Below the pieces are notes generated by a model, which saw nothing but the letters and a program-made list of their open reading frames with translations, searched no databases and was not told the DNA's origin. 34,540 nt of DNA from Clostridia bacterium (lineage in GTDB: Bacteria > Bacillota > Clostridia > Oscillospirales > Acutalibacteraceae), in contig JAFWZS010000040.1 in assembly GCA_017522205.1 (NCBI GenBank), positions 1 through 34,540 on the forward strand. The letters are read 5' to 3'. Position numbers and translations under genes: made by a program. Positions 7,811 to 31,929 of this stretch are shown here, one piece after another. Each line of letters begins with the position of its first letter. The first letter of the stretch is position 1.

Positions 7811-7851
7811 GAACTCGGCATGGCTTAAGTTTTAAATTGGAGGTTAAAGAT

Positions 7852-9594
7852 ATGAAAAAATTAATAGCTCTTATCCTGGTAGTTGTTCTTTCAATCACAA
7901 TGATGACGCCAATCGCATCAGCTGTTGATGCAAATGACACACCGGTTGTTATTCTCAGAGGTGACGGTGTATCACTTACAAAAATTGACGAAAACGGCCA
8001 GGAAGTTGAAGTTTATCCCGTTGGGCTCGACAGCATTGACGGCAAAGTAGGAGAAACCGCAAAGAATATTCTTATACCCTTCCTCACAGAAGGCCTTCTC
8101 TTCGACAAGTGGGATAACTACTACGAGGTATGCTACGAAGAGCTTTCACCCATTATGGCTGAAGTTGTTCTTGACGACAACGGTAACCCCAGAAATCAGA
8201 CCGGTATCGGCACTGAAACTACGAGAGATAACAGAAACTCCTGTAAGGTTGACAGACGCCATCAGTCAAAATACGGTGCAACAGACTATACCTTCTACTA
8301 TGACTGGCGCCTTTCCCCCTATGATATTCCTACAGGTGAAACAAAATCAATCGTTGATCTTCTTCACGAATACATCGGAAATGTAAGCAAAGCAAACGGA
8401 AACAGAAAAGTAACTCTTGCAGGTAACTGCCTTGGCGGCTCTTATGTTCTTGCTTATCTTCAGAAGTACGGCGATGCAGGTCTCATAAAAAATGTATTCT
8501 TCAACGCAACAACAGGTAACGGCACATCCATTCTCACTGATGTTTTCTGCGGTGATATTGAGCTTGATGCAAAGGCTATTCAGAGATTTGCTGATGAATA
8601 CATTGACGCTGACGCTGACACCCTTGCAGGTTTTGTTGACACAGCTCCCGTTATAAACGACCTCGTTCTCAAGAGTGTTGACCTTGCAGTTCAGCTTGGT
8701 CTTCTTGATGATTTTGCAGGAAAAATAGGCGAAATTTATCAGAAGGTTTATGAAGTTCTTGTTCCTATGCTTGTTATCGCTTTTTACGGCACAATGCCGG
8801 GCTATTGGACAATGATTGAGCCTGAGCGTTTTGAAGAAGCAAAGAATTTCGTATTCGGTCCTGAAGGCAGCGAATACCGTGTGAAATATGCAAAAATAAT
8901 CGAGAAAATTGACTATTACTTCAACACGGTAGGCTTCCACAAGAAAGCAATTATCAAGGCTTGTCAGGATAAAGACATCCACTTCGGTGCAACAGCAAAG
9001 TACGGCATTCAGATGTATCCGTTTGTAAAGAGTCAGGATCAGCTTGCAGATGAAAAGGTAGACTTTGAAAATGCCTCATTCGGTGCAACTGTTGCGAAAT
9101 CAGTTTACGAAGTGCTTCCCACTTCACATATTGACGCTGCAATCGCTGCAGGCAATGAAAAATACATTTCACCTGACAAGCAGATTGATGCTTCAACAAG
9201 CCTTTTCAAAGATACTCTTTGGGTAGAAAAGAATATGTCTCACGACGCCTGGAGATATGACTATGAGGTTATTGAAGCTTTCGCAAGTAACGATAAATTC
9301 ACCGTCTGGAGTGATCCAAATTTACCTCAGTTTGTTATCCGAATTCCCGGCACTGGTGAAATTGACCCCGACACAGGCCGTGAAGACCACGATACATCAA
9401 CAGTTGAAAAGATGGTTGCTGATAATTCAGACAACAACAACTGGCAGGACACACCTGAAGACAGCAAAACTCCAGAAAAGCCCACAGTAGCCTCAAGACT
9501 TGTGGCTTTCTTCCGTTGGCTTACTGCAATGTTCAAATTTATTCTTCACATTTCAAACGACAATCCCGGTTCACTTGAAGATGCTATAAACTAA
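7852..9594 (+). CDS. Secreted LCAT-like alpha/beta-hydrolase with Cys nucleophile elbow (copy A)
   Basis: A 580-residue exported protein with a clear signal peptide ending near ASA. YYDWRLSP (Asp151-Trp152-Arg153) and the elbow LAGNCLGGSYVLAYL fit the lecithin:cholesterol acyltransferase/lipase fold (PF02450-like), but the expected Ser of G-x-S-x-G is Cys193. The later SPDKQIDAS and MSHDAW segments are conserved with copy B and could supply Asp and His. A Cys elbow of type GxCxGG is known from polyhydroxyalkanoate synthases; whether this is an esterase, acyltransferase or inactive lipid binder is open. The tail from about residue 548 is amphipathic (VASRLVAFFRWLTAMFKFIL). The start at 7852 has GGAGG 8 bases upstream. 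It stands alone, with its own promoter and terminator, convergent with its paralogue. Confidence 0.8.
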   Translation: MKKLIALILVVVLSITMMTPIASAVDANDTPVVILRGDGVSLTKIDENGQEVEVYPVGLDSIDGKVGETAKNILIPFLTEGLLFDKWDNYYEVCYEELSPIMAEVVLDDNGNPRNQTGIGTETTRDNRNSCKVDRRHQSKYGATDYTFYYDWRLSPYDIPTGETKSIVDLLHEYIGNVSKANGNRKVTLAGNCLGGSYVLAYLQKYGDAGLIKNVFFNATTGNGTSILTDVFCGDIELDAKAIQRFADEYIDADADTLAGFVDTAPVINDLVLKSVDLAVQLGLLDDFAGKIGEIYQKVYEVLVPMLVIAFYGTMPGYWTMIEPERFEEAKNFVFGPEGSEYRVKYAKIIEKIDYYFNTVGFHKKAIIKACQDKDIHFGATAKYGIQMYPFVKSQDQLADEKVDFENASFGATVAKSVYEVLPTSHIDAAIAAGNEKYISPDKQIDASTSLFKDTLWVEKNMSHDAWRYDYEVIEAFASNDKFTVWSDPNLPQFVIRIPGTGEIDPDTGREDHDTSTVEKMVADNSDNNNWQDTPEDSKTPEKPTVASRLVAFFRWLTAMFKFILHISNDNPGSLEDAIN

Positions 9595-9604
9595 AATATG
9601 CTGT

Positions 9605-9640
9605 GGCGGTTACGCATAAAGCGTAATCGCCCTGTTTTTT
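9605..9640 (+). terminator. Terminator of LCAT-like copy A
   Basis: GGCGGTTACGC (9605-9615), loop ATAAA, GCGTAATCGCC (9621-9631), with one G-T pair, then CTGTTTTTT. Confidence 0.9.
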
Positions 9641-9666
9641 CAGCAAATATAAACCGGCAAGGCACG

Positions 9667-9783
9667 GGGCGCCGATAGCCGGAAGGCTTTCCGGCTATCC
9701 AAAGTGCAACACAATCCCCTGAAGGATTGTGTTGCACTTTGGATTACTGCATAAAACAAAATTTTATGCAGTAATCGGCGCCC
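9667..9783. repeat. Perfect four-way-junction palindromic element
   Basis: All 117 bases are accounted for by four perfectly paired arms and three loops. Outer arm 9667-9676/9774-9783, 10 bp. Hairpin 1, 9677-9684/9689-9696, 8 bp, loop GGCT. Hairpin 2, 9697-9717/9724-9744, 21 bp, loop CCTGAA. Hairpin 3, 9745-9756/9762-9773, 12 bp, loop CAAAA. No base is unpaired at the junction. GAT/ATC triplets at each arm base allow a 3-bp branch migration to a second fully paired form (7, 11, 18 and 15 bp). It sits between two terminators in the gap between the convergent LCAT-like genes. Function unknown. Confidence 0.95.
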
Positions 9784-9805
9784 TTTTCGCCTCTTTCACC
9801 CGACT

Positions 9806-9840
9806 GACAAAAGAAATCCGCCACACCTCAGTGTGGCGGA
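9806..9840 (-). terminator. Terminator of LCAT-like copy B
   Basis: Perfect 10-bp stem TCCGCCACAC (9817-9826)/GTGTGGCGGA (9831-9840), loop CTCA; on the minus strand it is followed by TTTCTTTTGTC. Confidence 0.88.
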
Positions 9841-9856
9841 AAGAGTATAATTTCAA

Positions 9857-11485
9857 TTATTTTGATGCAAATTCAAAAAGTGCTTTTATCCATGCAACAA
9901 AGGCTTCAAAAAAGTTTTTGATCCTGGTTAAAATGCTTGTGGGATAATCCTTTTCCTTATCTGCTTCCCATGCCTCTACGTTGCAGTTTTCTTCAGTCAT
10001 TTTAACTGCAAAATTTGATTCCTTTTCATATACAACATACTGACCGAAATCGAAATCGTCAACTGTAAGCTGTCTGTCTGCAGTTGTTACGGTGTAAAGC
10101 AGCTGTGTTTCCCATACAGACCAGTTGGAGTGCTTGTTACCCTTGATAAACCATGTGTTGTCGGGGAAAAGGCAGGTTGATGCATCAATCTGCTTATCGG
10201 GTGAAATGTACTTGCCTTTGCCTTCGCTTACTCTCCCGGCAATATATTCCTCAGAAAGAGTATCGTAAACTGTTGAGGTCGTTGCACCGAATGAAGCGCT
10301 GTTTACAGAAGCAAACTGGTCAGCTACAAGAGTCTGTGATTCGGTAAGAGGAATCATCTGACAGCCGTATTTTGCAATAATTGCAAGGTTAGCACCTGAA
10401 TCCTTGACCTGAGAGAGAAGCTCGGGAATACGCACACGTACATTTGTATGATAGTCGTCAAGCTTTTTGATGAGTCCTGCATATTCCTTGCGAAGCTCAC
10501 TGCCTTCAGGGCCGAAAACAAATTCCTTTGCTGTTTCAAAATCGTCTTTCTTCACTGTTGCCCAATATCCCGGCCAGGTAAGAACCGATGCACGTGCGAG
10601 AGCTGAGGTTACACCCTTTTCAAGCTTAGCATAAAGCTCAGATTCTGTAAAGCCTGAAACCGCACCGATAAGACCGCTTTTATTTGCAAGGTCAACAGTT
10701 TTAAGAATGAAGTCGTTGACTTCCATTACGTTATATACGTTACAGTCAACAAGAATTCTCATTATTGAGTTGCCGTCAAGTGCAATCTTGCCTGAAATTG
10801 CTTCACTTATAGGCTCCATACCGTTTACTGTACTTCCGTCAATACCAAGACCGTAAATATCATCTGTGCCGTATTTTAAAACGTAAGCAAGAATTACGTT
10901 TGTACCGAGGCAAAGGCCTGTGATTGCAACCTTTTCTGCACCCGTAACTTCTTTAACTGCATCTATGTAATCCTTGAACTGATCAGCAATTGTAAGAGGA
11001 TCAAGACGCCAGTCATAATGGAACTTGTAATTCCAGTCAAGGTAACAGCCCCACTCTTCTTTTGCGTCCTTTTTAAGATTTTCTGCAACATCCTTTTTCC
11101 TCTCCTCAGAAAGACCCGAACCGTCCTTGGGTTCACCGTCTTTTGTAAGAAGTGAGTCTTCAAAAATGTCTGCGATTTCCTCATACAGATTGTTGTAATA
11201 GTTATCCCATTTGTCAAAGAGCATACCTTCAACAAGGAAGGGATAAAGCACGTTAGCAACAGCACCCATAATGTCGCTATCTTCGTCGTCACCTGTCATA
11301 CCCTTGAGAATATCTGTGGTTTTAAAAATCTGGTTTCCGTTGCCGTCATAAAGAGGTTCACTGTCACCTGCAATTGAAACAACAGGTATTGTACTCCACC
11401 AGCTCGTCAGTGTTGCGGCATAAGCAGGTGTACCTAAGGTAAAGAGCATAACCCCTACAACAAGTAATGATAAAAGCTTTTTCAT
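9857..11485 (-). CDS. Secreted LCAT-like alpha/beta-hydrolase with Cys nucleophile elbow (copy B)
   Basis: A 542-residue exported paralogue of copy A, convergent with it. It has a signal peptide ending at AYA, the FHYDWRLDP motif (Asp158), the elbow ITGLCLGTNVILAYV with Cys192 where a lipase has Ser, GPEGSELRKEYA, and SPDKQIDASTCLF followed by NKHSNW (candidate Asp and His). Shared block order and length show an old duplication; the elbow Cys is kept in both, so it is not a sequencing error. The C-terminal tail ILTRIKNFFEAFVAWIKAL is an amphipathic helix like that of copy A. Two in-frame ATGs (11491 and 11485) are possible; the second is better spaced from GGGAG. Confidence 0.8.
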   Translation of the reverse strand: MKKLLSLLVVGVMLFTLGTPAYAATLTSWWSTIPVVSIAGDSEPLYDGNGNQIFKTTDILKGMTGDDEDSDIMGAVANVLYPFLVEGMLFDKWDNYYNNLYEEIADIFEDSLLTKDGEPKDGSGLSEERKKDVAENLKKDAKEEWGCYLDWNYKFHYDWRLDPLTIADQFKDYIDAVKEVTGAEKVAITGLCLGTNVILAYVLKYGTDDIYGLGIDGSTVNGMEPISEAISGKIALDGNSIMRILVDCNVYNVMEVNDFILKTVDLANKSGLIGAVSGFTESELYAKLEKGVTSALARASVLTWPGYWATVKKDDFETAKEFVFGPEGSELRKEYAGLIKKLDDYHTNVRVRIPELLSQVKDSGANLAIIAKYGCQMIPLTESQTLVADQFASVNSASFGATTSTVYDTLSEEYIAGRVSEGKGKYISPDKQIDASTCLFPDNTWFIKGNKHSNWSVWETQLLYTVTTADRQLTVDDFDFGQYVVYEKESNFAVKMTEENCNVEAWEADKEKDYPTSILTRIKNFFEAFVAWIKALFEFASK

Positions 11486-11520
11486 GATCATTCTCTCCCT
11501 TATTTTTATTATTGATTAGA

Positions 11521-24953: not shown

Positions 24954-27900
24954 TTATTCCGTCACCGTTACAAGGCAGGTTGCCATAAAGCCTCCGTCAT
25001 CTGTTTTAACGGTGATTATTGTTGTGCCTGCACCTGTGGGAGTTACAACGCCGTTTTTGATTGTTGCAACCTTTTCGTCGCTTGAACTCCAGGTGATGTT
25101 TTTGTTGGTTGCATCCTCGGGAGTGATAACTGCCGTGAGAGCTGCTGTTTCACCCATTCTGAGGCTTACTTCCTTTTTGTCGATTGTGATACCTGTTACC
25201 TTGCTTGCAACAGTAACCGCAGCCTTTGCCTTAACAATACCCTCTGAATCTGTTACGGTAATTTCAGCAGTACCCGTACCTACGGGAGTAAGTACACCGT
25301 CTTTTACGGTAACAACCTTTTCGTCTGATGAGTACCATTTGAGAGTTTTGTTATTTGCGTTTTCGGGGAAGACTTCACATTTAATTGTTGCAGTTTCGCC
25401 CTTATAGAGATAGTATGCATCGCTTTCCAGCTTGATAAGTGTTACGGGTTGAATAACGGTCACAGTACAATATGTCATATATCCGCCGTCAACAGTTTCA
25501 ACCGTAATCTTAGCTTCACCCTTACCCTTTGCAGTTACAACACCGTCTTTTACTGTTGCAACCTTTTCGTTGGTTGATTTCCAGAGCATTTTCTGCTCAC
25601 TTGCATCTGAGGGTGTGATTGTAGCCTTAAGGGTAACTGTACCGCCAACGTTGAGACTTACGTTTGTCTTGTCAAGGGTAATTCCTGCAACAGCCTTGGT
25701 TACAACAACCTTGACTGTCTTGGTGATGCCCTTTGTGTAAGCGGAAGAAATTGTGATTGTTACTTCACCCTTTTTAAGAGACTTTACGGTACCGTTTGAA
25801 ACCGTTGCAATGCTTTCGTCACTGCTTTCGAAAATAAGGTCACGGTTCTCTGCATTTTCGGGAAGAGCTTCAGCTTCAATTTTAATTACTCCGCCTTCGT
25901 GTACTGTATAGGTTTCAGTTTTAACCTTGATTTCCGTTACATTCTGAAGCACGGTTACGTTACACATATCAAGAAGACCGCCGTCTTCAGTTTTTACCGT
26001 AACGATAGCAGTACCCTTTGAAAGGCCGGTGATTTTTCCACCCTTTACTGAAACAACCTTATCGTCTGAGGTTGACCAGATAACGGTTCTGTTGTCTGCA
26101 TTTTCGGGAAGAACAGAAGCCGTAAGAGTTTCGGTTTCACCGTTGTGGAGAGTAAGCTCGTTTTTGCTGAGCTTAATCGAGGTTACAGGCTCATTTACCT
26201 TAACCTTACATTCTGCAGTAAAGCCGCCGTCTTCAGTTGTAACGGTGATTACTGCTTCGCCTCTCTCTATACCTGAAACTGTACCGTTATTCACAACGGC
26301 TATCTTTTCGTCACTACTCTTCCATGTTACGTTCTTGTTGTGGCTGTCTTCGGGAAGAACCTTTTCAATAAGAGTAAAGGTTGCACCCTTGTTTATTACA
26401 ATTGAACTTTCATTAAGTTCAACCTTTTCAGCCTTACGCTGAACTGTTATTGTGCAGGTTGCCTTGAAGTCACCGTCAGTTGTTTTAACCGTAATTGTAG
26501 CCTTACCGGGGGCAACTGAAGTAATCTTACCTGAGGAGTCAACAGTAGCAACTGTCTTATCGCTTGTGTACCACTTTACTGCCTTGTTGTAAGCGTCTTC
26601 GGGAGCAACTGTTGCTTTAAGTGTCAGCTTTGAACCTACGAAGAGAGTGTCCTCTGCCTTGCTGAGAGTTACACCTGTTACGGGTTCGTTTACTGTTACC
26701 TTACACTTTGCAGTTTTATTGTTTTCCTTGCTCTTTACTGTAATTGTTGCAGTACCGCCCTTAACAGCAGTGATAACACCCTTTGAAGATACTGTTGCAA
26801 CAGCTTCGTTGGATGAAGTGTAGGTTACACCCTTTTCACTTGCATTTGAAGGAGCAATTGTGGGAACAAGGGTATAGGTCTTGCCTTTCACCAGAGTTAC
26901 AGAGGTTTTATTGAGCTTGAGGGATTCAACGTGCTGCTTTACGGTTACGGTACACTTTGCAGTAATACCGTTTGAGGTTGTAACCGTAATTGTCGTCTTG
27001 CCCACCTTCTTAGGTGTGATTACACCTGATTTAAGTGAAAGAATCTTTTCGTTTGCAATCTTATAGGTAAGCTTTCTGTCGTTTGCATTGGTGGGTCTTG
27101 CAGAAGCCGAGAACTTTGCAGTTTCACCCATATAGACAGTAATTGAGGTTGCTGAAAGCTTAACTGAGGTTACGGGCTGCTTAACTGTCACCTTGCAGGT
27201 AGCTTTCTTTCCGTTTGAGGTTTTGACAGTAATTGTTGCTTCACCCTTACCTACTGCCTTGATTACACCCTTTGAACTTACTGTCACAACCTCATCATTG
27301 CTTGTGTACCACTTGAGTGTTTTGTTGGTTGTGTCTGAGGGTGAAATTGTAGCTTTGAGAGTATATGATTTTCCGTTGTTGAGTGTTACTGCTGTCTTGT
27401 TGAGTTTAACTGAGGTTGCAGCACGTTCAACCGTAACTGTGCAAGTTTTCTTGAAGCCACCGTCAACTGTTTTCGCAGTTATCTTGACTGTACCCGGTTT
27501 CAAGGGAGTTACAACACCGCTTTGTGATACCTTTGCAATTTTACTGTCGCTTGTGTACCATTTGATATTGGTATTGGTTGCATCCTTTGGATAAGCAGCA
27601 GCCTTCAGAGTGAGTGTCTTTCCGATGTAAACCAGAGCACTCGACTTATTTATTTTTATGCTTGTTACCTTCTTGATTACAGTTACCTTGCAGGTTGCCG
27701 TTTTATTTCCGTCAACGGTTTTGCAGGTGATGGTTACAGCACCCTTACCTACTGCAGTAATCTTACCTGAGGAGCTTACGGTTGCAACCTTCTTGTTGCT
27801 TGATGACCATTTCACACTCTGGTTACTCGCATCAGAAGGCTTAACTGTTGCTTTAAGAGTATAGGTATCACCCACCTCGAGAGTGCCTGATGTCTTGTTG

Positions 27901-30900
27901 AGCTTTACAGAGCTTACGGGCTGAATTACAAGCACACGGCAGGTATCTGTTTTTCCGTTGTCCTTTGTTTTGACAGTGATTGTTGCATAACCGGGGCCTT
28001 TTGCAGTAACAACACCCTTTGAAGAAACGGTAGCAACGTCGTTATCGCTTGAAGAATAGGTTACTGTTTTGATTGAAGCACTTGAGGGCTTTACTGTGGG
28101 TGTGAGTGTACTTGTCTTGCCCACATTGATTGTAAGTGAGCTCTTGTCAAGTGAGACACTTGTTACAGGCTTGATAACGGTAATTACGCAGGTTGCCTTG
28201 AATTCACCGTTGGCAGTTGCTGCAGTTATTGTGGTCTTACCTGTTTTTAGTCCCTTTACAACGCCCTTTGATGTAACTGTTGCCACCTTCTGATTGCTTG
28301 AAGTCCATGAAACATACTTGCTCGTTGCGTTGTCGGGCTTGATTGTTGCCTTGAGAGTATAAGTGCTGCCCACATCAACGTTTGCCTTCGTCTTGTTAAG
28401 GCTGATTCCCGTTGCCGGCTGAGTTACCGTCACACGGCAGGTGGTTGATGCATTGCCGTCCTTTGAGGTTACGGTAATAACTGCAGTGCCTACTCCGACA
28501 GCAGTAACAACACCCTTTGAAGAAACGGTTGCAACCTTTTTATCTGAAGACTTCCAGCTTACATTTTTATTTGATGCAGATGTGGGACTTACTGTTGCCA
28601 CAAGAGTCTTTTTCTTTCCTGCATCAAGTGAGATACTTGTTGATTCAAGTGAAACTGATGAAACAAGCTGAACAACCTCAACGGTACAGGTATCCTTGAA
28701 GCCACCGTCTTCGGTCTGTACTGTGATTGTTGCAGTACCCTTTGCCTTACCCGTAACAACACCCGATCCGTTTACCGTAGCAATGCTTTCGTTGCTCGAG
28801 GTCCAGATAAGGTCGGTGTTTGCTGCATCAGAGGGCTTTACAACTGCAGTAACAGTTCTGTTTTCACCCTTCGGTACGGTTACGCTTGAGGTGCTGATTG
28901 TAACACCCGTAACGGCAACATAAACCGTTACACGGCATGTTGACGAGTAACCTCCGTCTACTGAGGTTGCAGTGATCTGTGTTTCACCGCTCTGAAGAGC
29001 TGTTACAAGACCTTTCTGGTCAACTGTTGCTACAGTGCTGTCTGATGAGAACCAGATAAGCTCTCTGTTGGTAGCATTTACGGGAATAACTGTTGCAACG
29101 AGTGTGTGTGATTTTCCCTTTGCAACCTTTACGTCTGCTGCTGCGAACTGAACACCGAGTACGGGCTGAACAACGGTAATCTTACATTTTGCAGTATAGT
29201 TTCCGTCGTTTGTTCTTGCAGTAATGTATGCCTGACCTGCACCCACAGCCTTGATAAGACCGTGTTCGTCAACAGAGGCAACGTTGAGATTTGATGAGAA
29301 CCAATTTATCTTTGTGTCACTTGCGTTTGTGGGAAGTAACGTTGCAATTACAAGATGCTCTGAACCCTTTTCAAGTGAAATTTCCGTTGTGTCAAGATTT
29401 ATACCTGTTACGGAAACCTTGTTTCCAACGGTTACTATGCATGAAGCAATGTGGTTGCCGTTTTCGGACTGAATTCTGATTTCGGCTGTGCCTGCTTTTC
29501 TTGCAATTACGTTACCTTCGGTGTCAACGAGAAGGATTGTGGAATCGCTTGTGTACCACTTGATTTTCTGATTGCTTGCAGTTTCGGGATAAACTCTTGC
29601 CTTAAACTGATAGCGCTGACCTACATACATTCTGTCAAGCGAATCTATAAATTCAATTCCTGCAACACTCTGATTTACGCTTACCTTACATTTAGCAGTA
29701 TATTCACCGTCAACGGTAGTAGCTGTGATAATACATGAGCCACCGTCCTTAGCCTTGACGATACCGGCAGAATCAACAGTTGCAACCTTTTCGTCTGATG
29801 AGGTCCAGGTTACCTGCTTGTTTGTTGCTGCAGAAGGAGTTACCGTTGCAACGAGCTCAAAGGTTTCACCTGAGTTAAGACCGAGAACAGTTTTGTTGAG
29901 TGTGATTCCGTTTACACCGATAACAACAGTTACCGTACATGAGGCGGTAAAGCCTCCGCTGTTTGTCTTACAGGTGATAACTGCCTGACCTGTTTTGATA
30001 CCGGTAAGCTGTCCGTTTTTGTCAACGGTTACAATACTTTCATCTGAGGATGACCATGTAAGTCCGTTGTCTGAGGCATATTCGGGAATGATTGTTGCCT
30101 GAAGATGTGTTGTGCCTCCGACTGAAACCTTTGCCGTAGAAGGAAGCGTTACACCCGTTACGGGCTGAGTTACGGTCACTTCACAGCTTGCAGAAATACC
30201 GCTTCCGTCTGCAGCCGTTGCAGTGATTGTTGTCTTACCGGGATAAAGAGCCTTAACTTCACCGGCAGGTGTAACTGTTGCAACCTTTTCATCTGATGAG
30301 GTCCATATAACGTCACTGTATTTTTCACCCTCTGTTGTGGTTACGGTTGCTTTAAGAAGATGCACCTTACCGCTTTCAAGAGAAAGAGAGGTCTTGCTGA
30401 GTGTGACACTTTCTGCAAGGTCGGTTACGATAATCTTGCAGGTGATTGTGAGATTGCTTCCGTCTTTTGTTTTTGCAGTAACAAAGCATGTACCCACACC
30501 GTTCGGATAGAGAACACCGTCATAGTCAACGGCACAGACACCTGTGTTGTCACTCGTCCAGTCGAGAACCTGATTACCTGCATTTTCGGGAAGAATTTCA
30601 ACTCGTACTCTCTGTGCTGTTGCATCGAGAGTGAGAACCTTTACGGTATCGATAGCCTTAAGAGAAGTAATCTGTGGCTTTACGTTTACGTTGAATGAGC
30701 CACCCTTACCGCTGCCGTCAGTTGCAGTGTAGGTGATTTTTGCAACGCCTTCCTTAACACCCTTGATTTCAATTGAAGCAACGTCACCGTTTACCTTTGC
30801 AGCTGAAACTCTTACAACATCTTCGTTTGATGAAACCCAGTTAAGGTCCTTTATGCTTGCGTTTGAGGGGTTGATTTTAACGCTGAAGGTTCTTGTTTCG

Positions 30901-31781
30901 TCCTCTGTGATGCTGAAGCCGTCAGCAGGAATAATTGTTACGGGCTCAATTGAGGTTATGTAAAGGAACTTGCTTACTGTTACGTCACAGCCTGCAACAT
31001 ACTTCTTGCCATCAGCAGTTGTTGCAGTAACTGTAATACGGCATGAGCCTGTCTTAAGACCCGTTACTTCACCGTTTGAAGATACAACTGCAACCGCATC
31101 GTTGCTTGAAGTCCATTTGAGGTTGTATTCCTCTGTGGGTTCGGCGTTTCCGTCAGCACCGAAAACGAGGGCTGAAAGTGTGATTTTCTTGTTTTCAAAG
31201 AGCTCTGCCTCTGTCTGTGAAAGCTTGACTCCTGCAGCAGGGTTCTGAATGTTGATTTTGCAGGAAGCTGTGTAATTGTTTGAAGAAGCGATTACCGTCA
31301 CACCGCTTGGTGAATATTTTTTGACGGTAACGAGACCTGACTGTGAAACGGTTGCAAGGCTTTCGTCTGAGGTCTGCCACTTGATTTCATCGGCAGCATC
31401 AACCGGTGTAAGAATTGCAGTGAGCTGAAGTGTTTCACCTACGGCAACGTTTGCAGTAGTCTTGTCAAAAGCAATGCCCTGAGTATGAAGTTTAAGGTTA
31501 GCAATTGCGTTTTTGAGGTTTGAGGTACATCTGTCGATAGCGCTCTGATCGTCACTTCCCTGAAGAAGCACAGAAGCAAGGTCATAGTAAGCGGACAGCA
31601 CTGTGGTGTCGATATACTTGCCCCATTCAGCTTTAGGCGGAACTGTATCATAGACCTTCTGCAGTTCACTTGTGTCTGCTGCAACGGCTTCAATTTTCCA
31701 CAGGTCAGCTATAGGCGATAAAGGTACCGCCGTAAGCACAATTATTGAAGTCATAAGCAAAGCTAAAATTCTCTTTGTCAT
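24954..31781 (-). CDS. Giant exported protein of 26 BIG2 (bacterial Ig-like) domains
   Basis: A protein of 2275 residues. A signal peptide (about 1-30) is followed by a helical segment (about 35-95, ELQKVYDTVPP...NLKNAIANLKLH) resembling a FIVAR-type three-helix module. Then come 26 consecutive Ig-like domains of about 83 residues each, to the last residue. Each shows the BIG2 pattern: 'P..A.n..l.W.SSd..vatV...G.v.....G...I.....dg....C.VTV'. Most domains carry a single Cys in the last strand. Domains 12-20 are Lys-rich, the others more acidic. No LPXTG, SLH, dockerin, transmembrane or amphipathic tail is seen, so anchoring is unexplained. BIG2 arrays usually act as stalks or adhesins, but no tip domain is present. 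GAGGT lies 6 bases before the start at 31781. It is monocistronic. Confidence 0.93.
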   Translation of the reverse strand: MTKRILALLMTSIIVLTAVPLSPIADLWKIEAVAADTSELQKVYDTVPPKAEWGKYIDTTVLSAYYDLASVLLQGSDDQSAIDRCTSNLKNAIANLKLHTQGIAFDKTTANVAVGETLQLTAILTPVDAADEIKWQTSDESLATVSQSGLVTVKKYSPSGVTVIASSNNYTASCKINIQNPAAGVKLSQTEAELFENKKITLSALVFGADGNAEPTEEYNLKWTSSNDAVAVVSSNGEVTGLKTGSCRITVTATTADGKKYVAGCDVTVSKFLYITSIEPVTIIPADGFSITEDETRTFSVKINPSNASIKDLNWVSSNEDVVRVSAAKVNGDVASIEIKGVKEGVAKITYTATDGSGKGGSFNVNVKPQITSLKAIDTVKVLTLDATAQRVRVEILPENAGNQVLDWTSDNTGVCAVDYDGVLYPNGVGTCFVTAKTKDGSNLTITCKIIVTDLAESVTLSKTSLSLESGKVHLLKATVTTTEGEKYSDVIWTSSDEKVATVTPAGEVKALYPGKTTITATAADGSGISASCEVTVTQPVTGVTLPSTAKVSVGGTTHLQATIIPEYASDNGLTWSSSDESIVTVDKNGQLTGIKTGQAVITCKTNSGGFTASCTVTVVIGVNGITLNKTVLGLNSGETFELVATVTPSAATNKQVTWTSSDEKVATVDSAGIVKAKDGGSCIITATTVDGEYTAKCKVSVNQSVAGIEFIDSLDRMYVGQRYQFKARVYPETASNQKIKWYTSDSTILLVDTEGNVIARKAGTAEIRIQSENGNHIASCIVTVGNKVSVTGINLDTTEISLEKGSEHLVIATLLPTNASDTKINWFSSNLNVASVDEHGLIKAVGAGQAYITARTNDGNYTAKCKITVVQPVLGVQFAAADVKVAKGKSHTLVATVIPVNATNRELIWFSSDSTVATVDQKGLVTALQSGETQITATSVDGGYSSTCRVTVYVAVTGVTISTSSVTVPKGENRTVTAVVKPSDAANTDLIWTSSNESIATVNGSGVVTGKAKGTATITVQTEDGGFKDTCTVEVVQLVSSVSLESTSISLDAGKKKTLVATVSPTSASNKNVSWKSSDKKVATVSSKGVVTAVGVGTAVITVTSKDGNASTTCRVTVTQPATGISLNKTKANVDVGSTYTLKATIKPDNATSKYVSWTSSNQKVATVTSKGVVKGLKTGKTTITAATANGEFKATCVITVIKPVTSVSLDKSSLTINVGKTSTLTPTVKPSSASIKTVTYSSSDNDVATVSSKGVVTAKGPGYATITVKTKDNGKTDTCRVLVIQPVSSVKLNKTSGTLEVGDTYTLKATVKPSDASNQSVKWSSSNKKVATVSSSGKITAVGKGAVTITCKTVDGNKTATCKVTVIKKVTSIKINKSSALVYIGKTLTLKAAAYPKDATNTNIKWYTSDSKIAKVSQSGVVTPLKPGTVKITAKTVDGGFKKTCTVTVERAATSVKLNKTAVTLNNGKSYTLKATISPSDTTNKTLKWYTSNDEVVTVSSKGVIKAVGKGEATITVKTSNGKKATCKVTVKQPVTSVKLSATSITVYMGETAKFSASARPTNANDRKLTYKIANEKILSLKSGVITPKKVGKTTITVTTSNGITAKCTVTVKQHVESLKLNKTSVTLVKGKTYTLVPTIAPSNASEKGVTYTSSNEAVATVSSKGVITAVKGGTATITVKSKENNKTAKCKVTVNEPVTGVTLSKAEDTLFVGSKLTLKATVAPEDAYNKAVKWYTSDKTVATVDSSGKITSVAPGKATITVKTTDGDFKATCTITVQRKAEKVELNESSIVINKGATFTLIEKVLPEDSHNKNVTWKSSDEKIAVVNNGTVSGIERGEAVITVTTEDGGFTAECKVKVNEPVTSIKLSKNELTLHNGETETLTASVLPENADNRTVIWSTSDDKVVSVKGGKITGLSKGTAIVTVKTEDGGLLDMCNVTVLQNVTEIKVKTETYTVHEGGVIKIEAEALPENAENRDLIFESSDESIATVSNGTVKSLKKGEVTITISSAYTKGITKTVKVVVTKAVAGITLDKTNVSLNVGGTVTLKATITPSDASEQKMLWKSTNEKVATVKDGVVTAKGKGEAKITVETVDGGYMTYCTVTVIQPVTLIKLESDAYYLYKGETATIKCEVFPENANNKTLKWYSSDEKVVTVKDGVLTPVGTGTAEITVTDSEGIVKAKAAVTVASKVTGITIDKKEVSLRMGETAALTAVITPEDATNKNITWSSSDEKVATIKNGVVTPTGAGTTIITVKTDDGGFMATCLVTVTE
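24957..31484 (-). repeat. Tandem array of about 250-bp BIG2-coding units
   Basis: 26 in-frame units of about 80-86 codons. They are diverged enough for each to be told apart by eye, but share DNA words such as the one for 'VATVSSKGVV', so unequal recombination could change copy number between strains. Assembly collapse is a risk here. Confidence 0.85.
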
Positions 31782-31929
31782 AATTCTACCTCGTTTCATA
31801 CTCAGATTTTTTATCTTAAAGTCGATATATTTTATATTTATATAATACTATAAATGGCATAAAACACCACTATAGTAACCTACATTATATTACAAAGAAC
31901 TCACGGTGTCAACCATTTAGTAAGAGCAG

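Follow-up and report, generated by a model that had tools for sequence, protein, structure and literature searches.

A perfectly paired four-way fold in a Clostridia genome belongs to a dispersed family of intergenic repeats

Described folded repeats and the element of the window

The closest described systems are represented here by excerpts of their sources, and the likenesses and differences given below are those of the excerpted descriptions. Pneumococcal BOX repeats, together with RUP and SPRITE (PMC3049150), are short, dispersed, intergenic and tightly folded, with a narrow host range, as is the element reported here; BOX is also over-represented between convergent genes, and its inner module folds almost separately. 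BOX keeps the sequence modules boxA, boxB and boxC, as far as a comparison by description only can tell (PMC3049150), whereas the inner hairpins of our element are free of conserved letters, always three in number, and held together almost only by Watson-Crick pairs. REP sequences of the REP/RAYT Y1 system (PMC3733652) are likewise palindromic, extragenic and gene-less, and their spread is attributed to an enzyme that works on folded single-strand DNA; they are, however, palindromes of 20-40 bp with a GTAG tag, while the element is a four-way fold of 75-130 bp. The bcr1 repeat of the Bacillus cereus group (PMC2267715) is comparable in being dispersed, ~150 bp long and conserved in its fold, and in coming from a Gram-positive group, and mobile-element traits are claimed for it in the title of a work cited there, but its family is defined by sequence. 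Hairpin repeats of mitochondria (PMC2800124) are invading, some of them double or triple hairpins, and their letters diverge between hosts; they differ in being organellar, those with triple hairpins are highly AT-rich, and the excerpt notes no enclosing outer stem. A further work (PMC13155455) is, by its excerpt, about single perfect inverted repeats.

The window is a stretch of 34,540 nucleotides from a Clostridia bacterium of the Acutalibacteraceae (contig JAFWZS010000040.1). An earlier note, made from its letters alone, had described positions 9667-9783 as a mismatch-free four-way junction, and our analysis bears this out: the arms are of 10, 8, 21 and 12 bp and the loops of 4, 6 and 5 nt, giving 51 Watson-Crick pairs and a junction with zero unpaired bases. 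The outer arm is formed by GGGCGCCGAT at 9667-9676, all 10 bases of which pair with ATCGGCGCCC at 9774-9783; it encloses hairpin 1 (9677-9696), hairpin 2 (9697-9744) and hairpin 3 (9745-9773), all of which fold. The minimum free energy (MFE) fold with DNA parameters is this form (-56.1, z -14.8), and with RNA parameters it is a shifted form (-82.3, z -14.9) with an outer arm of 7 bp and hairpins of 11, 18 and 15 bp. None of 200 shuffles matches the fold with either parameter set, in agreement with the claim that it lies beyond chance.

The junction of the window copy can thus slide, by 3 steps, as had been claimed; within the family sliding is not conserved, since the junction is without gaps in 42 of 99 folded copies and sliding is possible in 3 of those 42. 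This share, taken over six genomes, is lower than a naive chance estimate of ~44%, which ignores common descent.

The element lies between two terminators, as the earlier note had it: a terminator-like site of the left gene at 9605-9641 on the + strand (stem 9605-9631) and one of the right gene at 9807-9840 on the - strand (stem 9840-9817), both neighbouring features outside the element. The convergent genes stop 72 and 73 nt from the core. The flanking genes (7837-9594 and 9857-11491) are indeed paralogues, with 33% protein identity, and neither has a Pfam match at E 0.001. Each of the 34 genomes of the genus has 8-27 matches to the family of the second paralogue (9857-11491). Elsewhere in the window, 24954-31799 on the - strand encodes a protein of 2281 residues, in which 25 stretches match the bacterial Ig-like domain Big_2.

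Copies in the genus and a shared architecture

The comparison set comprised 34 genomes of the genus, the genome of the window being called G000. A check for other copies, using patterns and covariance models, revealed many dispersed copies in 6 of the 34; the perfect four-armed fold is one member of a dispersed family in the genus. G000 holds at least nine copies, eight at places found by the pattern GGCGCC..GGCGCC, each a full element, and a ninth found by model R3, with a long inner loop in the middle hairpin. G007 has six, the first of which was found with a covariance model built on the window copy, and covariance models gave 13 copies in G016, 5 in G005 and 2 in G031. The first two elements in G019 came from a sequence-free scan of neighbouring loci and show the same architecture in other letters; 65 distinct copies were read there and at least 65 are present, the 103 model rows often being both strands of one place and having been read in part. 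The 100 copies read over the six genomes are short, gene-less, dispersed and multicopy, as MITEs are. At the sensitivity of the pattern and covariance-model searches the other 28 genomes were negative. A DNA similarity search of the 34 genomes gave no match beyond the window element itself; such a search is blind to the copies because only the outer arm retains letters. Run with filters off, model R1, for which the window copy was the only source, recovered the element in each of the 29 loci given to it, all known beforehand to hold one, with zero further matches in the 83 kb of these loci.

Three G019 contigs (C47, C181 and C171) have an end only a few bases away from a copy, which is expected if repeats break assembly. 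Two copies at locus L217 of the same genome (6345-6418 and 11144-11217) are 95% alike over the element plus at least 115 nt on one side, while the other flanks differ; the break sits at the element edge with a contig end nearby, and could be either a rearrangement at the element or an assembly effect.

All 99 folded copies consist of an outer stem and exactly three hairpins. Letters are conserved in the outer arm only, over 6-10 bp; in hairpin 1, for example, other copies have different letters with the pairing retained. The outer arm, which serves as a terminal inverted repeat of the kind that MITEs have, is GGCGCCGAY/RTCGGCGCC at the eight pattern places in G000 and the six in G007, GGCTCC with covarying neighbours and its complement in G019, and mostly GGCGGCTCC in G016, G031 and G005. 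The three pairs outside GGCTCC covary, a fraction of 0.874 being paired with their own partner vs 0.705 with shuffled partners (0 of 500 shuffles); a still longer outer stem was tested in the G019 copies and found no support. A weak G-rich consensus motif reading inward is seen on both sides of the G019 copies in a flank profile. By eye, the left flank of the window element (9647-9666) carries a weak inward-reading G-rich motif like CGGTNAAGGTGAG, and the right flank (9784-9803) resembles the same motif on the other strand.

Compensatory changes are present. In an alignment of 21 sequences, 20 of them from G019 and the other from G005, both-side changes occur at 14 pairs vs 8.2 in shuffles, and cells with a both-side change number 53 vs 14.3 expected (0 of 500 shuffles), in counts that treat related copies as independent. 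The earlier note had reasoned that a lone element whose arms decay without covariation would argue against a maintained or mobile one; both copies and covariation were found.

Searches beyond the carriers were of varying reach. Among phages and plasmids, a DNA similarity search gave nothing useful, the single plasmid match being 25 bp long (E 0.7). Among the matches of the outer-arm pattern listed for a genome collection, 129 in 120 loci were folded and none was element-like; the same holds for 227 in 210 loci among those listed for viral contigs, and at two further viral loci the partner arm is absent within 130 nt. The folding criterion by which such arm matches were rejected lets through 98 of 99 true copies. 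In these collection loci a sequence-free scan called a 48-bp two-hairpin structure (L183), which is not the element, and a run of model R1 over 80 of these 120 loci produced a single weak match (L142, E 0.059), which was set aside. A family-wide pattern scan of 398 genomes, only 7 of them of the genus, found matches in G031 and in G408, the latter rejected as its fold differs from the element. Model R3, with at most 9 candidates scored per genome, found the element in G000 only among the 398; it missed both known G031 copies and three of the eight G000 pattern places, and absence outside the genus is therefore weakly supported. Within the genus, 14 outer-arm matches outside G000 and G007 were folded and none was an element, the rest being judged by eye from partial sequences; single hairpins in G013 (46 nt, E 0.017) and in G026 and G029 (26 nt, E 0.077) were likewise set aside.

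Three letter-free hairpins within one stem are absent from BOX, REP, bcr1 and the mitochondrial repeats as the excerpts describe them. We know of no four-way junction in bcr1. Among open-licence papers, judged by title and the start of the abstract, no description of such a family was found.

Placement near gene ends and orthologous sites

In G019, 62 of the 65 copies lie outside predicted frames of at least 110 codons, as called by a simple custom frame finder; of the other three, two fall within short frames (113 and 126 codons) and one within the 5' part of a 299-codon frame, the real start of which may be internal. For the 58 copies with both neighbours, the gene layout is tandem in 41, convergent in 12 and divergent in 5. 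Of the 70 sides towards a gene 3' end, 53 have a terminator, vs 3 of the 53 towards a 5' end; the T-run typically ends ~25 nt from the core, and the core is 51-94 nt past the stop codon on 40 of the 70 sides facing a 3' end. A G007 copy (L312) is 70 and 71 nt from both stops. The neighbour genes mostly differ between G019 and the other carriers; there are a few exceptions, one of them a gene followed at its 3' end by an element in G016 as well as in G019 (92.6% identity).

The gap between a metallo-hydrolase gene and hrcA holds an orthologous element in G000 and G007, the products of the two genes being 84.5% and 97% identical, respectively; on the hrcA identity, G007 is the nearest relative of G000 among the genomes compared. 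A search with hrcA gave 30 loci, of which the 14 with a full metallo-hydrolase gene beside hrcA were used and 16 were set aside. All 12 other genomes with this gene order are without the element, and this is the only locus with clean empty sites; the gap is 324 nt in G000 and 314 nt in G007 vs 159-193 nt in these 12. The simplest reading is that a unit slightly larger than the core was inserted before G000 and G007 parted; alternatively, the other genomes could have lost it by deletion. Because the insertion is longer than the core and the G-rich motif is present, the flanks are possibly part of the unit. A terminator-like hairpin is seen at the empty sites; by eye, its counterpart at the hrcA locus of G000 and G007 (L314 and L315) looks degraded. 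A 38-bp two-armed hairpin called at another locus of the hrcA search (L328) is not the element.

A second orthologous G000/G007 site adjoins a gene whose product has a tRNA-editing domain (91% identity). As two sites are common to both genomes, there is no case for recent movement. In the orthologous pairs L307/L311 and L303/L313 the outer-arm letters are kept, one with an extra outermost pair. Together these two pairs show 27 both-arm changes vs 2 one-sided breaks; the 27 comprise 7 both-side Watson-Crick substitutions and 20 whole-pair gains or losses, the extra outermost pair included, a split that is soft, as it depends on a simple custom pair alignment.

How the family may have spread and kept its fold

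The earlier note had also considered a structured RNA. A structured RNA or mRNA-stability element working in transcripts would fit the very stable RNA fold and the covariation, but the pairs themselves speak against it: G-U makes up 1.1% of pairs (43 of 3835) in 99 copies, counted as if related copies were independent, so that the exact p value carries no weight, vs 12.1% (68 of 560) in a set of 53 terminators flanking G019 copies, and MFE folds of the tmRNA and SRP RNA of the window have 19 of 112 and 5 of 32. In addition, the element is usually past a terminator, its orientation relative to tandem genes in G019 is unbiased (20:21), and Rfam gives no match to it at gathering thresholds; we consider function in transcripts highly improbable. 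Since each G-U pair would be an A-C mismatch in the opposite strand, the deficit implies that either both strands are constrained or both arms change together, and the four-way pairing is apparently kept at the DNA rather than the RNA level.

Copy number, empty sites and patchy distribution support the spread of a gene-less insertion element, and we believe that the family, dispersed in the genus, is probably a non-autonomous, gene-less insertion element of ~120-160 bp. The earlier suggestion of a mobile folding repeat therefore holds as regards copies, empty sites and compensatory change, but not as regards the size and tag of REP or target duplication. The GTAG tag is absent from the G019 flank profile, and direct repeats flanking 61 G019 copies show no enrichment (k = 3, 4, 5, 6 and 8, offsets 0-49), so that no target duplication was seen, though old copies could have lost theirs. 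For REP, target duplication is not expected. A likeness to attC, also raised earlier, is contradicted by near-perfect arms, no extrahelical bases and three internal hairpins, an integron attC being a single imperfect hairpin that has extrahelical bases and R/L boxes. As the tested features of REP and attC are missing and MITE fails on target duplication, we file the element in no named family; it is best read as a non-autonomous insertion element that resembles MITEs and REPs in kind but is new in architecture. IS200/IS605 elements move by a single-strand route without target duplication, and the absent duplication and strand-symmetric fold would fit a route of this type. Against it, Y1 genes do not track the element: Y1_Tnp (PF01797) occurs in 21 of 34 genomes and is missing from the carriers G000, G005 and G031 (completeness 74%, 72% and 97%), and no adjoining element was found at the Y1 loci by a scanner that recovers 49 of 65 known G019 copies. 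The search for a mobilising enzyme, which covered Y1_Tnp, gave no partner, two of the three carriers without the gene being incomplete genomes of about 73%.

We propose that copies were once spread by a trans-acting enzyme, which would act on folded single-stranded DNA, recognise its outer stem and possibly the G-rich flanks too, and insert the element near terminators. The arms might then stay perfect for two reasons: the fold is important, and one arm serves as template for the other during replication or repair. Such template switching in hairpins has been described (PMC8794818), and near-perfect arms with both-side changes fit it, with or without selection on the fold. That the copies are nothing but mutational relics, palindromes inserted once and perfect solely through template switching, is suggested by the predominance of both-arm changes and whole-pair gains or losses and by the rarity of G-U intermediates; we nonetheless think it very unlikely, as template switching alone would not hold exactly three hairpins in one stem in 99 of 99 copies, nor conserve the outer-arm letters. 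The main rival to an insertion element is a host function as a bidirectional boundary, be it an insulator, a backup terminator or a supercoil-relieving cruciform, under both-strand selection at gene ends. The recurrent spacing from stop codons in G019, in the window and at L312, the unbiased orientation, the pairing retained at two orthologous sites and the degraded look of the hrcA hairpin all speak for such a role. Against it, the family was found in 6 of 34 genomes, in 2 to at least 65 copies, with neighbour genes mostly unshared between G019 and the other carriers; a parasite, too, is best tolerated past gene ends, and with most neighbouring terminators of G019 in place there is little readthrough left to block. 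We regard a boundary role as unlikely, but it is compatible with spread as an insertion element, and the two could coexist.

Much more tentatively, the insertion element might represent a class of mobile DNA that inherits a fold and not a sequence, in which a dedicated enzyme would recognise the four-way junction by its outer stem and intrastrand templating would keep rewriting the three hairpins. If so, copies would diverge in letters yet remain perfect substrates. Families like this may be widely missed, because similarity search is blind to them and only 6-10 bp of outer arm are fixed. The G-U deficit relative to terminators in the same gaps offers a simple test of whether a fold is constrained at the DNA or the RNA level, and orthologous copies, empty sites and both-arm rewriting in two close species provide a natural system for the origin and upkeep of palindromes.
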